This document shows positions 35,768-55,308 of a DNA stretch of 64,000 nucleotides, one piece after another. The notes under the pieces were generated by a model. The model saw only the letters and a list, made by a program, of their open reading frames with translations, was not told the DNA's origin and made no database searches. Origin of the DNA: Polytrichum commune (Eukaryota > Streptophyta > Polytrichopsida > Polytrichales > Polytrichaceae). The stretch spans positions 48,844,796 through 48,908,795 of the forward strand of contig OX485807.1 in NCBI GenBank assembly GCA_950295325.1, written 5' to 3'. Each line of letters begins with the position of its first letter. Position 1 is the first letter of the stretch. The position numbers and the translations under genes are program-made.

Positions 35768-37052
35768 GGGGGACGTTAAATACCCCCCCACGAACTTTCC
35801 GGGGTGTCAGATCCGGGCTGGGGCAGCCGCCCGTCCATAAAATCTGGATTTTTTGGACCCGACCGAAAACTGTTGCCCGCCCGTCCGATTTCGAAAAAAC
35901 CATTGCCCTTGCATTCTTGAAGGCCACTTACTCACAAATACCATATTGAGTGCACTTCACCTTCAAGGGCCAAAATCCAATATATATGTTCATTTCCATT
36001 GAGTAAATAAGCAATTGACTGGGGTTTCACTATCAAAGTGAAACCGTTAATAAAACATGTAATTAACTTGGAAGTCAAAAATATTACAAAACCCTCACTA
36101 GCATTGAGGTTATAATTTTTGTGACTCACAATTTGAAATTGTCTTTGTCATTCTAAAATGACACTTAAATTTAGTGTGCTGATTTAGTATGTGTATTTTA
36201 TAATATTTCAGGTAATGCCGTCTACTTTCACAAGTATTCATACGCATTCATTAATCAATTATAAGAATTAATTCATTGGACTTAATTATTAGAACTAATT
36301 CACTGGAATTAATTATTATAATTAATTCACTGAAATTAAATTCCAGATATTAATTATTATAATTAACTCACTGGAATTGATTCCAGAAATTAATTATTAG
36401 AATTAACTCACTGGAATTAATTCCAATAATTAATTAATTACAGTAAGTACATTTTATAATCAATTAGTTTTACTTAATTTGGTAAGCATAGTTTCTGATT
36501 TATTTGGGATTAATGAAGATAAATGAAGATTAATTAGACTTAATTATATTTAATCACACTTGATTCTAATGAATGCGTATGAATACTTGTGAAAGTAGAC
36601 GGCATTACCTGAAATATTATAAAATACACATACTAAATCAGCACACTAAATTTAAGTGTCATTTTAGAATGACAAAGACAATTTCAAATTGTGAGTCACA
36701 AAAATTATAACCTCAGTGCTAGTGAGGGTTTTGTAATATTTTGAACTTCCAAGTTAATTACATTTTTTATTGACGGTTTCACTTTGATAATGAAACCCTA
36801 GTCAATTGCTTATTTACTCAATGGGAGTGAACATATATATTGGATTTTGGCCCTTGAAGGTGAAGTGCACTCAATATGGGATTTGTGAGTAAGTGGCCTT
36901 CAAGAATGCAAGGGCAATGGTTTTTTCAAAATCGGGCGGGTGGGCAGCAGTTTTCGGTCGGGTCCAAAAAATCCAGATTTTATGGACGGGCGGCTGCCCC
37001 AGCCCGGATCTGACACCCCGAAAAGTTCGTGGGGGGTAATTTAACGTCCCCC
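35768..37052. mobile_element. Mutator-like foldback element with about 490 bp terminal inverted repeats
   Basis: The element begins GGGGGACGTTAAAT and ends with its complement. The two arms (about 35768-36255 and 36562-37052) are reverse complements over nearly 490 bp at high identity. Flanking 9-mers ATCCAGTTG (35759-35767) and ATCCAATTG (37053-37061) differ at one base. A 9 bp target duplication with very long TIRs is typical of Mutator-like elements. The 300 bp centre is AT-rich and made of diverged GGAATTAATTATTA-type repeats, with no transposase, so it must depend on another element. A rearranged relative lies at 51897-52898. Confidence 0.8.
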
Positions 37053-45946: not shown

Positions 45947-47866
45947 TGTGAGGCCAAACCCCCCACCCTTAAGCGTCCGTAGTCCGAGTAGTGGGTTTGG
46001 GCTCACATTCCTCCGCGGTATTGGATTTGGACTTGGATGAGTCCATAGTGCAAGGTTCACCCTTCAAGTGGTCTTGGATTTAACTTTGGTCTTTGCTTCC
46101 TTTGTCTTGCCATCGCGAGAGTGCTCCACATTCTCCATTAATTTGTGCACGTGGTTTATTTTTAAAGAGAGGATGCAAGTGTTAAAAAAACACTATTCTC
46201 TATAGTCAATCTCAAATACATTTACTTGTGAAAGCCACCATAACACTAACTAGCATAATGTAACTAACTACTTGTCTATGAGCTAATTAGGTAGGCTATC
46301 TACTAAGCTCCTTCATGAACCCATCTCTTTACTTTCTAATTACATAAACCTAGCTCCTTCATAAACCTAGCTCCTTCATAAACCCAGCTCCTTCATAAAC
46401 CCAGCTTCTTAGCTTCTAACTAAACAAACCCAGCTTCTTAGCTTCTAACTAAACAAACCCAGCTCCTTCATAAACCCAGCTCCTTCATGAACCCAGCTCC
46501 TTAGCTTCTAACTAAACAAACCCAGGTCCTTCATAAACCCAGCTCTCTACTTTCTAACTAAACAAACCCAGCTCCTTCATAAACCCAGCTCTTTACTTTC
46601 TAACTAAACAAACCCAGCTCCTTCATAAACCCAGCTCCTTCATGAACCCACAACTTTGTAGTTGTAATCCCCAACTACCTCACTAATTATTCAAGCCCTT
46701 AACTAATCTTCCTACCTAATTTCCCTAATTCTACTAACAACCCCTTTCTAATCACACAATTCTTCTCTAATCCTAAAATCCTAAAATCCTAGAGAGGAGA
46801 GGGGGAGAGAGAATTTCCTAACTTCACTAAGACTAACTAATCCACACAAGTATATTTTTGCACTCATCACAACATCAAGTGCTCAACTCTTAAACATAGA
46901 ACTTGCAACCACGTGTATTCAAAACATGAACTTTAAGTACCACAAATTGGAATCATGAATTAACTTTAAAATCCTTCACGTCAACACTAATTCTACCAAG
47001 AGGTCAAGCCCTCTTCAAGGCTAACAAGCCTTGGCTCTCAAACTAAAAACTAAGCACACACATGTGCTCCAATATGGCTTCCCACACCCACACTTATAAC
47101 TCGTGGGGTGCCTTGGAGCACAAAGGAAAGAGAGGATGAGTGAGGGAAGAATGAGGGATTATATAGTAAGCTTGAGGGGGTGAGCACCCTCAAGGCTCAC
47201 GATAAGCCCTTGAGATTTCCTCCTACTTAGTAGGCGCCAATCCTATCTTCTAAGCCTTCCTCCCTCAAATGATCAACAAGGATCCTAATTCGAACATTTA
47301 ACTAGCCTTGGCTTTCTACCTACCACACTTTACCAAACTTGGGATGCTTCAACCCAAACTTAGCCTCCTTCGCTTTCCGCCGCCATAACTTTCTCCCCTT
47401 ACTTTCCCAAATCGTCGCTCACCACTTAATTCAAACCACGATGCTTAACTCGTGATTTGATTGGTGCTTTGAGAATTTGCTTATCCTCCACCTTGCATTC
47501 TTCCTTGGGCCTTCCCCATTAAGTGGCCATGATGAGGTGGTCCACTTGTGCGCTCCATGTGATCCTCCATTCATCCCAATTCGAATGCACTTGCCTCTTG
47601 AGTCACTTTGGTTGTCTCCATCCATTTGTACTAGCCTACTCACTAACTACTCAATCCAAGTTCTCCTTACCTATCCTCATTCACTCAAATCCTTCCGAAG
47701 GTAAAAACACAATAACAACTCACATCCTAGCCTCTTACAACATGGTACTTCTAAGACTAACATTTCACTCTTTTTATATTTTTGTGAAGTAACATGCTAC
47801 TTCAAAGTGCATCAACTAACGTTTCAAGGGTCTAAGACTAAATGTGGGCACCCTTTTGGGCTCACA
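45947..47866 (-). mobile_element. Solo LTR, 1920 bp, TSD TGTTC
   Basis: On the plus strand it starts TGTGAGGCCAAACCCC and ends CTTTTGGGCTCACA, with a TGTGAG/CTCACA inverted pair at the ends. It is flanked by exact TGTTC duplications (45942-45946 and 47867-47871). The duplicated flank at about 55745-55770 has the empty site. It contains a tandem array at about 46300-46650 (CTTCATAAACCCAGCTC and CTTCTAACTAAACAAACC units). No gag or pol is present. Confidence 0.88.
46300..46650. repeat. Tandem array inside the solo LTR (16-26 bp units)
   Basis: Units CCTTCATAAACCCAGCT and TAGCTTCTAACTAAACAAAC alternate irregularly. The array starts about 360 bp from the LTR's left end, the same place at which the unrelated minisatellite of the LTR at 37682 begins. 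Confidence 0.85.
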
Positions 47867-50451: not shown

Positions 50452-51896
50452 CTAGAAGTGTAAGTCTAATTTCAGCCCAGGACACATTGCTTCTAGTTTC
50501 GTAATCTCATCCGTAGTCAAAGATATGCTCTCACAAGAACAAAAAGCCAGCAACATCTCAAAAGTCTACATTGACTCAAATCGGGCACTTCTTGCAATTC
50601 ATGGCAGAAAAATATTTCAAGCCGCTCCAAAGCAGTCATGGGCAATGTCCGGGGACAACCGGTATTTAGTGTAATGGCGGCTGGTTGGTTTTGTGAAAAG
50701 TCCGGTTGAATTGGGAAAATGGACGATGTGAAACCGGAGCTCTTTTAAAAATTAAAAAAAAACCGGATTTCAACCGGCAACCAATTTGAGGAGGAGGATT
50801 TTTACCCGGATGAATTGTGAAGTAGGTGGATTTCATCCGGTTTGATTCATCTAGGGCCAAATATCATTTGGTTCTAGGGTTTAGGTTATGTGTTTCTTGA
50901 AGGCTTGTATTGATATGGTGAATGGCGGATAGGCAAAGCTTTTGCTGTATTATTGCATTTCATTGTTGACGGCTAGCGTTTAGAATGTATCATGAGTATG
51001 TCTATGAAAGATCTTCGTGGTGATCTTGATGACATACTAATGGAAGCCATAGCTTTATGGAGGAACTTTACAAAGTTTAGATGGTTGTTTTCACATCCAA
51101 AGAGATACCTTTCAGGGCGTTTTCCTCTTGAAGGTGAAGATGATACTGCTGATTTTGACTCTATAAGTTGATGAATTTCATTTTTGTATATAGTATGGTA
51201 TGTTAGAATACTCTTTTATCATTTTGTGGCCTCAAATCTATTATGAGGTTTTAAGACCTAGGTATGATAAAAAAAAAGTAATTGCACACCCATCAACCAG
51301 TTGATGGGTTATTTTCGGTTCAACTCTTGCTATGGATAAATTGTTGATCATTGTTGTTGTTTCTTGTATGTTATGAATTGTTGATCAATGTTGTTGGATG
51401 TTGATATCATTACATAGTATTGTTGTATGTTGATATGTTCTTTGGACGTTGTTGTTGAATGGTGTATGTTGTTTGTAGATATAATTTTGCTACATTGGAA
51501 AACCGGCTTACTTATCAATGCCCAAGTTTTTTGCTGGTTGTCATTACAATGAAGAGGAAGTTAGCCAACACTTGAAAAAAAATATAGGATATTGGCCAGT
51601 CCAAATTAATGGCAACAAGTTTGCAACCGGTCAAGTCCTTAAAAAACCCGGTAGAAGTTGTGAAGGGGCGGATTTTAGCTGGTTGAGCTCAAAATTCTCC
51701 CGAACCTTGGTCATGGGCATGGTGTTGATCAACCTCTCCAAACTCCGACAATAACTAATACTCAACTTTTTCAATTCCGGGAAAAAACTCAATTTTGGTA
51801 GCTCTCTGCATCCCACATCCCGAAGTGTCAAAGTTTGTAGCGCCATTGCAGTTCCAATTCGAGGTTGGTCGACCCAAAGAGTGTCCAAGGACTTCG
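50452..51896 (-). pseudogene. Receptor copy C: LRR 3' end, interrupted and truncated
   Basis: The parts 50452-50644 and 51710-51896 match the last about 125 codons of the LRR exon of copy B (SLDTLWVDQPRIGTAMALQT, CRELPKLSFFPELKKLSI, HELQEVPDLSQC-like, then EAMCPGLK and a TAG stop). They are separated by a 1.07 kb insertion. The match stops at 51896, where foldback-element sequence begins, so all upstream LRR, NB-ARC and TIR coding sequence is missing. This is a dead host gene fragment. Confidence 0.85.
50645..51709. mobile_element. Unclassified 1065 bp insertion in the copy C LRR exon, 10 bp flanking duplication
   Basis: The word GTCATGGGCA occurs at 50635-50644 and again at 51710-51719, while receptor copy B has it once, so the DNA between is an insertion. 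Ends ATGTCCGGGGA and (complement) CAAGGTTCGGGAGA are only weakly inverted. The body repeats AACCGG words and includes a 58-codon frame at about 50996-51172 (MSMSMKDLRGDLDDILMEAI onward) without a known domain. A 9-10 bp duplication suggests a Mutator-like origin, but the family is open. Confidence 0.65.
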
Positions 51897-52898
51897 ATTT
51901 TTTGGATTTGACCGAAAATTGTTGCCCACCCACCCGACTTCAAAAAAACCATTGCCCTTGCATTTGTCGTGTAAATACCGATCGTGTGTCACTGCAGCTC
52001 GAGTACCAACCACCACTAACAAACAACACTAAAACATAGCAAAGTCATGTCGAGTTCATGTGTGACTTTGCTATGTTTTAGTGTTGTTTGTTAGTGGTGG
52101 TTGGTACTCGAGCTGCAGTGACACACGATCGGTATTTACACGACACCTGAATCATTCAAATTAAGCTCAATCAGATAAGAAAGCATACTTACCAAATTAA
52201 TTAAGCCTAATTAATTATAAAATGTACTTACAGGAATTACTAATGATTTACTGGAATCAACTCCAGTAAATCAACTTGTAATCTACTAGGTTTTATTAAT
52301 TTGGTAAGCTTACTTTCTGATTTGATTGGGCTTAATTATGATTAATCATAATTTATTAGACTTAGTTACATTCAGTCACACTTAATTAGTTTAAATGCAT
52401 ATGAATACTTTGTGAAAGTAGAAGGTATTACCTAGACTACAATATTTGACATTTTTAATGTTAACTTGATTATTATTTCATATTTTAAATACTAATTTTA
52501 GTTGCATATTAGAATGGAAAAGGCCCTTTCAATTGTAAGTCAAAAAAATTATAACTTCAATGTTAATGAGGGTTTTGTCATATTTTTGAATTCTGAGTTA
52601 ATTACATGCTTTGTTGGCGGTTTCATTTTGAAAATGAAATCCTAGTCAATTGCTTATTTAGTCAATGGTAGTGAACATATATATTGGATTTTGGACCTTG
52701 AAGGTGTAGTGTACTCAATATAAGTGGCCCCCAAGAATGCAAGGCCAATAGTTTTTTTGAAGTCGGGTGGGCGGCCAACAATATTGAATCGGGTCCAGAA
52801 AGTCTAGATTCCTTCGACGGGCGGCTACCCTTGCCCGAACCTACCTCCCCCGAAAAGTTTGTGTGTGTGGGGGGGGGGGGGGGAACTTAACGTCCTCC
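51897..52898. mobile_element. Second Mutator-like foldback element, left arm rearranged
   Basis: The right arm (about 52290-52898) matches 36440-37052, ending in AACTTAACGTCCTCC. The left arm survives only as 51897-51962 (TTTGACCGAAAATTGTTGCC onward) and about 52150-52250, and the outer terminal repeat is missing. Between those two pieces sits the perfect palindrome 51965-52145. The left edge joins directly to the copy C LRR fragment. Because the left end is lost, no target duplication can be tested. Confidence 0.7.
51965..52145. repeat. Perfect 83 bp inverted repeat with a 15 bp spacer
   Basis: Bases 51965-52047 and 52063-52145 are exact reverse complements over all 83 positions. The spacer is TGTCGAGTTCATGTG. 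The arm reads TGTCGTGTAAATACCGATCG and onward to CATAGCAAAGTCA. Surrounding element sequence is diverged from its relatives, so perfect arms point to a recent origin or active homogenisation. The arm sequence occurs nowhere else that I noticed in this window. Confidence 0.95.
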
Positions 52899-53635: not shown

Positions 53636-55308
53636 TGTGAGCCCAAATTGATGCCCACATTGGTTGTTAACACTTGTAAAACATTACAAGTGGTGTTTTG
53701 GTGATTTATGATTATTCACAAAAATATAAAAAAAGTGAAGCTTGAAGAAAGCTTAGTTTGAAGCATTAGGTTTTTGTGGAGTGGATTTAAGTAGGAGAAG
53801 GACAAACCTTGGTAAAGTGTGGTAGGTAGAAAGCCAAGGTTAGTTAAATGTTTGAATTAGGATCCTTGTTGATCATTTGAGGGGGGAAGACTTAGGAGAT
53901 AGGATTAGAGCCTATAAAGTAGGAGAAGATCTCGAGGGTTTATCGTGAGCCTTGAGGGTACTCACCCCCTCAAATTCACTATATAATCCCTCATTGTTCC
54001 CTCACTCATCATCTCTTCTCTTCGTGCTCTAAGGCACCCCACGTGTTATAAGTGTGGGTGTGTTGGAAGCAAGATTGGAACACATGTGTGTGCTTAGTTT
54101 TTAGTTGGAGAGCCAAGGCTAGTTGGCCTTGAAGAGGGTTTGACCTCTTGTTAGAATTAGTTTTGGTGTGAATAATTTTAAAATATTTTATGGCTTCAAG
54201 TTGTAGTATTTAAGTTCATATTTCTTGGGTATTTCTTGAGTAGTCTAGGTTGTAAGGGGCATAACTTCCGAGCAGAAAAAAATACTTCGTCAAAATTTAG
54301 AGGGTTAGTAAAAAACTTGTTTATATGAACATGGTCAAAATCTGAGAATGTTTAGAGTACTGGAGCAGCAGTTATGACATTCTGAACTTCGCCTACATTT
54401 TCGAGCTGAAATGGGCATAACTCCTAGACAAAGGCTTAGAAACGCATGAAATTTTGAGAGATGCTTTGTTCTTAGGTTTCCTAGTTGTGGTATAAATTTC
54501 AAGTCATTCCGAATAGATGAAAAGGAGATATATCATTCTGAAGTGTTTTCAAGAATTGCAGACTAAAAAGGCCATAACGTTTTGGCAGAAAATGAAAATA
54601 GTTTGAAATTTCAGGGGGTCATAAACAATTAGTTTTTGTGATTGCTCCCAAAATTTAAAGTTCTTTGGAGCCTGTGAGAGGAAGTTATGACATTCTGAAA
54701 TCTGGGTAGATTGACACACTAAAATGGTCATAACTGTCGGACAGAAAATGAGATAGGCTCACAAATTGGTGAGATGTTTTTTTCTTTGTCTCCCTAGTTA
54801 CAGATAAAATTTCAGGACATTCCGAGAAGTAATGGGAAAGTTACACTATTAGCTAGCAAAGTCTAGGGGAACAAAGGAAGTTTGCTTGGTTCCATTAGGG
54901 ATAACCATTAGTTTATTAAACCAATATAGTGGTTGAAGCGTGAGGAGAAAACTACAATAAGTGACAAGTATTTATCAATATTTTAACTTGTGTAATTCAT
55001 AGAATCAATAAGCGAGAACTCATGTAGTAGTGTGGAGTCGACGGCAAGGATTCGCTTCACAAGAGGGATATCTTTGAAGGCATGCGTGGCCAAAGCGGCC
55101 GGGTGGACTTTAGAGAAGTACAAGGATGTGACATTACCCGAGATTAAGGAGTGTAAGAAGACATAGTATAGACTTGGCTAAGTTGTGTATATTCCAACGA
55201 TAGATTGGAATCATACATTGTGTTACAAAAAAAAAATCTCTACATATCATTATAAACTTCTCCATTCGGGCTAGGACGAAATTGAAGGGTGGAGGCTTTT
55301 TCGTGACA
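53636..55308 (+). mobile_element. Solo LTR, 1673 bp, TSD ATGTT/ATGTC
   Basis: It starts TGTGAGCCCAAATTGATG and ends TTTTTCGTGACA. The flanking 5-mers differ at one base, and the uninterrupted equivalent is at about 27555-27570. The start and end match the complement of the LTRs at 45947 and 37682, so it is the same family in the opposite orientation. The middle repeats a module of the kind CATAACT...GACAGAAAATGA, typical of long plant LTRs. No internal coding region is present. Confidence 0.8.

Follow-up and report, generated by a model that had tools for sequence, protein, structure and literature searches.

The question raised by this locus is how a perfect palindrome came to lie within a decayed transposable element. 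The window, by which is meant the whole 64,000-nucleotide stretch of the Polytrichum commune genome that was analysed (C5:48844796-48908795; genome of 407.8 Mb in 64 contigs), contains two 83-nt arms, 51965-52047 and 52063-52145, that are 100% reverse complementary and separated by a 15-nt spacer. An earlier note on this DNA had described these exact inverted arms and their 15-base spacer, and direct comparison bears the description out. Folded as RNA, the palindrome reaches -159.2 kcal/mol, against a mean of -47.4 kcal/mol for shuffled sequences (z -27.5), and none of 200 shuffles folds equally well. Together with the fact that the arms are a known genomic repeat, this rules out a chance origin. 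The palindrome is a real, single and explainable oddity, most likely formed from the misjoined cDNA of a split-repeat Gypsy element. The reading developed below, in which a Ty3/gypsy-type retroelement with split repeats inserted aberrantly by way of misjoined cDNA ends, is given a probability of roughly 60%.

The features concerned are the following, repeat B being a 106-nt repeat of the retroelement.

35768..37052, no strand: related, uninterrupted foldback element with 486-nt arms, 97%
51883..51964, plus strand: left-arm remnant of the foldback host, junction end ...CCTTGCATT (paralog and relative alignments)
51964..51965, no strand: left junction; in paralogs CTTGAAGG comes next, then 376-382 nt absent from the window (paralog alignments)
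51965..52047, minus strand: left arm, the reverse complement of repeat B nt 24-106, its 3' 83 nt (match to B copies)
52048..52145, plus strand: complete repeat B from first through last base, without nt 8-15 (98 of 106 nt; B alignment)
52048..52062, plus strand: spacer, B nt 1-7 and 16-23 (B alignment)
52145..52146, no strand: right junction; ...AATTAAT or a one-base variant precedes it in most paralogs (paralog alignments)
52146..52863, plus strand: remainder of the foldback host from CCTGAATC on, made up of its centre and right arm (94-96% to 14 paralogs)

The host is a foldback-type element, and its decay and its divergence from the relative at 35768-37052, both proposed earlier, are confirmed by an identity of 70.5-74.5% over 675-760 nt; over 69 nt, the left remnant is 87% alike to that relative. 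Among the 40 places scored of 2500 candidates, 14 are paralogs of the host with its right flank, 94-96% alike; 10 of them lie on C5 at 47.8-48.9 Mb, three on C2 and one on C7, and two loci with partial cover (L066 and L067, 90-91%) are left out of this number. With the segment 52146-53634 of the window, these 14 paralogs form a segmental duplication family; of the places scored, some on C1 to C6 are more distant relatives of 52146-52860, at 76-82%. Several other repeats surround the site. A repeat of ~230 nt at 51480-51711 recurs at 90-94% in 38 of the 40 places scored from 1317 candidates, and an inverted repeat pair, 46965-47336 / 53809-54182, which is 88-91% complementary, encloses ~6.5 kb containing the palindrome.

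The paralogs give the state of the target before the event. In 11 of the 14, the two flanks are separated by 376-382 nt; the left alignment ends two bases short in six of these 11, which gives a span of about 376-380 for the junction as it stands in the window. The left flank in these copies ends ...CTTGCA or ...CTTGCATT, while the right flank is CCTGAATC or a one-base variant of it. Of the other three, L054 has 880 nt between the flanks with the same bases at both junctions, L065 carries a different deletion at the site and L053 is without the left part. A further locus, L050, is 91.5% alike over 1.5 kb leftward; it reads through the left junction, retains 132 nt of the missing segment and then diverges. 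The deletion without the insert was seen in none of the 14 paralogs. In these alignments the palindrome stands in for about 376-382 nt of target, with no base gained or lost at either junction, which puts a measure on the several hundred bases of the left arm that had been thought to be replaced.

A genome search for the source of the arms had been proposed beforehand, and the source was found. The arms are the last 83 nt of repeat B, which starts TGTCGAG and finishes CACGACA. A search of the genome with all 181 nt of the palindrome returned 82 matches (40 places scored of 586 first-look candidates); among the scored places, the window alone is covered in full and the others match one arm plus at most 16 further bases, at 96-100%. 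A search with one B copy returned 41 matches (40 scored of 583 candidates). The 30 loci taken from it correspond to 26 places, since four loci duplicate a place, and they hold 36 distinct copies of B, of which two (L010 and L009/L011) match the arm at all 83 nt and nine differ from it by one base. At another locus, L102 (C2:3295700-3295980), two B lie in direct tandem, the second starting TGTCAAGG, as if the first bases of another repeat of the family, A, were fused to B.

Apart from the window, no inverted B-B arrangement was found in the genome with 15-base ends at a gap of 130-160, nor at the wider gaps of 130-190 and 70-130 with a C/G variant allowed and a G required in the gap; these searches demanded exact ends and thus pass over diverged copies. 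With no second rc(B)|B insertion found at these spacings, the event stands as a single case. The palindrome occupies one place, has no target duplication and has arms drawn from a retroelement repeat, so it does not qualify as a MITE or foldback transposon, and insertion of such an element was rejected because the arms are repeat B. Of the earlier idea of a separate young foldback insertion, then, the separate insertion stands and the foldback does not. A TRIM element with 106-nt LTRs was likewise rejected, since the long copies described below have a 5' A without B there, as well as coding ORFs.

Within the insert, rc(B24-106) is followed by the whole of B minus eight nucleotides. The alignment with B places both outer ends precisely at the 3' end of the repeat and the head-to-head joint, at 52047/52048, precisely at its first base. 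The start of B with the 8-nt gap is found without mismatch at the window alone; five more places have it with one mismatch, the differing base being the same in all. The absence of any difference between the two 83-base arms fits the recency that had been suggested for the palindrome, which is thereby bounded weakly.

These exact ends bear on two readings that invoke the chromosome or the assembly. Perfect palindromes are a known type of artefact. However, a fold-back in assembly or library would be expected to carry inverted flanking target, whereas the arms stop at the end of B on both sides; because a different target flank lies beyond each arm, just where the paralogs predict it, such an artefact is very improbable. 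Chromosomal snap-back repair at the site was rejected on similar grounds, as the copy would be expected to continue into the flank. A chromosomal fold-back copy does not fit, since the joints fall exactly on the natural ends of B and flanking DNA would have been inverted too. The favoured step, a hairpin or end joining in the cDNA of the element, is close to the templated repair or hairpin closure proposed earlier.

What kind of element carries repeat B can be read from two long copies, L072+L074 on C5 and L071+L075 on C7. Seven ORFs were scanned with profiles and five of them contain a known family; L071 matches PF00078, PF17917/PF17919, PF17921 and PF00665, and L072 matches PF00078. The reverse transcriptase, RNase H and rve integrase (PF00665) of a Gypsy pol are present. 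In the C5 copy, a methylase-like ORF (L072:3762-4781) matches PF00145 with an E value of 1.3e-9, its best solved chains being DNMT3A (E 7.1e-7); in this one copy the coding region includes a putative C5 DNA methyltransferase of Dnmt3 type. Between them, L071 and L072 also carry a PHD finger. The coding regions of the source element (DNMT3-like methylase, reverse transcriptase, RNase H, rve integrase and PHD finger) lie at L072:3762-4781, L071:454-873 and L071:2410-5202.

Both long copies begin with a repeat A of ~337 nt, TGTCACGG...CTTCTC, and no B was found near this 5' A in either (44 nt upstream of A scanned in the C7 copy and 2565 nt in the C5 copy). At their 3' ends a purine tract, GGGGGGCA, is followed by a single B. 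Thus neither carries an identical full LTR at both ends, as a conventional LTR element would. The 26 places among the 30 loci show a variety of 3' ends: tract-B-GC-A-B-flank in 12 (11 distinct by sequence), tract-B-GC-part of A in three, tract-B-flank in four, a tractless end with B preceded by all or part of A in five, and B alone in two. The dinucleotide between B and A is GC in 14 of 15 places, with AC in L013. Extra bases interrupt the A|B joint in three of the 11 distinct B-A-B copies, namely tract-like GGGGGCA (L012), a single T (L024) and primer-site-like ACTA (L034). A B stands ahead of A-B in 26 of 40 places and is lacking in 14. The 12 tract-B-GC-A-B places are 3' ends only, while the two long copies with a 5' A have a single B at the 3' end; as no one copy was read with both a 5' A and a 3' B-A-B, the arrangement has to be pieced together from different copies. 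So composed, the layout of the family appears to be one of DIRS-like split repeats, A-coding-B-A-B.

Many of these insertions are flanked by short direct repeats. Among 14 solo A|B copies, 13 had their flanks compared by eye for a 4-bp target duplication, which is exact in six, agrees at three of four bases in another six and at two of four in one; the fourteenth, L026, agrees at three of four. L027 has an exact 4-bp duplication. ATGA lies on either side of the long C7 copy, and the long C5 copy agrees at three of four bases at best. A target duplication of 5 bp, considered at one stage, was replaced by 4 bp on the strength of the solo and long copies. No duplication was found at L030 (GGCT/CCCA) or at the lone B copies L017 and L018. 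As judged from these flanks, insertions in the family start at A (TGTCACGG) and finish at B (CACGACA), and many have duplicated 4 bp of target.

A second group of joints suggests how the cDNA may be primed. The sequence GGCATTCTTGCCAAGT in repeat A is complementary to ACTTGGCAAGAATGC, the site directly after A1 in the long copies; the complementary stretch is ~15 nt long (A about nt 124-139 against the site after A1). A genome search with a query spanning a fold-back joint (40 places scored of 1035 candidates) found the whole joint at seven places, which with L014 makes eight (L014, L028 and L105-L110). In each, sense A runs to nt 137-139, antisense A takes over at the primer site, and B comes last. 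The inner ends of antisense A lie at nt 321, 209, 190, 186, 186, 184, 173 and 148, seven different positions. Flanks compared by eye show an exact target duplication at four of the eight and agreement at three of four bases at the other four. B starts TGTCGAG in L014, L028 and L107; its first bases are altered in L105, L106, L108 and L110, and missing in L109. Joints arranged in this way are what would be expected of cDNA for which the element's own end had served as primer.

These observations allow a route to the palindrome to be proposed. By the usual logic of LTR elements, a repeat bounded by a purine tract on one side and a primer site on the other is the LTR. As B lies just after the purine tract and A just before the primer-binding site, the LTR produced by reverse transcription would be B-GC-A. 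Its ends would be the start of B and the end of A; these would be joined as A|B, and the integrase would cut the internal B|GC|A site, the core of which, GACAGCTGTC, is itself palindromic. Joining of cDNA ends followed by internal cutting would be the simplest account of insertions that run from A to B. Solo A|B copies were discarded as proof of double cutting, since an A-int-B-A-B copy yields the same product when its A1 and A2 recombine. In the window event, two B-start ends may have been joined head to head, one of them trimmed by 23 nt, or one cDNA end may have snapped back and copied itself. Either step would give rc(A)-GC-rc(B)|B-GC-A, and cutting of B|GC|A on both sides would release a short rc(B)|B piece for insertion. 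Were the ends of this piece inserted ~380 bp apart, or the target trimmed, a deletion would arise instead of the 4-bp duplication. This faulty insertion step, with its loss of 380 nt and no 4-bp duplication, is the weakest part of the model.

In favour of misjoined cDNA are the exact ends and joint, the replaced target seen against 11 of 14 paralogs and the unbroken left junction of L050; both arms are identical to the same two of 36 B copies. The anatomy of the family adds the split repeats, the inverted repeat of primer and primer site, the 4-bp duplications, the B-GC-A spacing, the extra bases at A|B and the eight fold-back joints. Against it, the rc(B)|B form is a lone case at the gaps searched, and the window insert has no target duplication. 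End joining requires the trimming of 23 nt from one end and a separate loss of eight nucleotides, and the terminal bases of B show no pairing with the copy point, so that the snap-back version would have proceeded without a primer match. Some copies of the family (L030, L017, L018) likewise have no duplication or a poor one, and the first bases of B are changed or missing in five of the eight fold-back copies. Lastly, the bases following the two target breakpoints, CTTGAA and CCTGAA, share five of six positions, as do 0.9% of position pairs in L056; this likeness tips the balance a little from integrase towards repair, and may be a hint of microhomology.

The exact outer ends of B and the missing target duplication would also be accounted for if two family members had inserted in opposite orientation ~380 bp apart, with their B ends outward, and a single deletion had then run from nt 24 of the left B to the start of the right B. 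The family is large, with 583 first-look candidates, and a right copy of the A-int-B type (GGGGGGCA|TGTCGAG) would offer a 2-nt CA microhomology at the deletion joint. Nevertheless, the deletion would have to end precisely on the first base of B. Moreover, when the B copies are compared two by two, no more than 11 of 595 pairs agree over 83 nt (35 pairs of one mis-registered row of the 36 having been dropped), a proportion that overstates chance identity because the copies were picked as best matches to one B. By rough arithmetic, a random scatter of 583 copies over 408 Mb would give ~0.1 close outward-facing pair genome-wide before any exact stop is required. Two insertions and a deletion are thus an unlikely origin, though the least unlikely of the competing ones.

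The deletion and the similar breakpoint contexts also fit another origin, in which end joining at a double-strand break took up a palindromic piece of cDNA, with 376-382 nt resected and no part for integrase. Such capture has precedents, as far as the parts of these sources consulted go: retrotransposon sequence captured at breaks has been reported (PMC4516963), the transfer of DNA from the cytoplasm, retrotransposon cDNA included, into the nuclear genome has been studied (PMC10802722), and so have short templated inverted insertions (PMC11724301). Random capture does not, however, predict that both ends would fall exactly at B|GC|A, a site internal to the LTR that reverse transcription would make, with GC missing on both sides, and we regard it as improbable. 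With its source identified, its joints exact and 11 paralogs with the target unbroken, the palindrome can be taken as a readable record of one failed retroelement insertion.

A wider proposal may be built on misjoined cDNA, namely that a Gypsy element with an rve integrase inserts not from linear cDNA but by first joining its ends and then cutting the internal B|GC|A, much like the circle junctions of tyrosine-recombinase elements. The palindrome would be the one fossil found of a wrong, B-to-B join, which left a 181-bp piece between two cut sites, to be inserted by itself. We hold this tentatively and would not offer even odds on it; if true, the fossil would show joining and cutting to be separate steps. 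The palindrome itself is of moderate interest. The family's joints are of more: taken with the palindrome, the A|B joints and the eight joints of fold-back type suggest a route of priming, joining and insertion for split-repeat Gypsy elements that have an rve integrase.

Several known systems share parts of this anatomy. DIRS, Ngaro, PAT and TOC1 are split-repeat elements with the order A-coding-B-A-B, an arrangement that the source family, as pieced together, appears to share. DIRS and Ngaro elements are defined by a tyrosine recombinase and the lack of a target duplication, whereas the source family has an rve integrase (PF00665) and 4-bp target duplications; no tyrosine recombinase was found among the seven ORFs scanned, which places the family outside DIRS/Ngaro. 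For the A|B joint, the comparison system is the junction of retroviral 2-LTR circles, which it resembles in the tract- or primer-site-like remnants of some copies. The window joint differs from these in that it links B-start to B-start and in that the piece is inserted in a chromosome.

Self-priming has been predicted in the plant Tcn1 and TAR lineages (PMC6317226, consulted in part). The source family may be like the self-priming LTR elements (Tf1/sushi, Tcn1, TAR) described there, in that its A carries GGCATTCTTGCCAAGT, complementary to ACTTGGCAAGAATGC, and differs from them in its apparently split layout and in its genomic joints, where the primer lies inside sense A and antisense A follows. 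In maize, Mu killer consists of inverted copies of part of a mobile element (PMC3440606, in the portion consulted). The window palindrome is also made of inverted part-copies and might give a hairpin RNA; it is far shorter, and its hairpin is a predicted fold. If transcribed, a perfect hairpin matching the family's B could silence the family.

On the literature concerning head-to-head LTR joints, KnitGypsy and split repeats with integrase, no description of a head-to-head insertion was met, a weak absence as it concerns mostly titles and the starts of abstracts. The published descriptions met give, in the parts consulted, the layout of such elements rather than their route of priming, joining and insertion. 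The closest known element is KnitGypsy-Dnmt3 of Klebsormidium nitens, which combines Gypsy domains, a Dnmt3 and DIRS-like repeats according to the portion of its description consulted (PMC5890265), and which is likened here by description and not by sequence. It belongs to another genome, and the term PHD is absent from the main text of that paper, whereas the source family carries a PHD finger; the head-to-head B-B insertion, the self-primer joints and the 4-bp duplications seen here were not met in that description as far as it was consulted. Both elements have Gypsy-type domains and encode a methyltransferase related to Dnmt3, and they appear to share the order A-coding-B-A-B. As KnitGypsy-Dnmt3 and predicted self-priming in plants have already been described, the source family is of a known kind.
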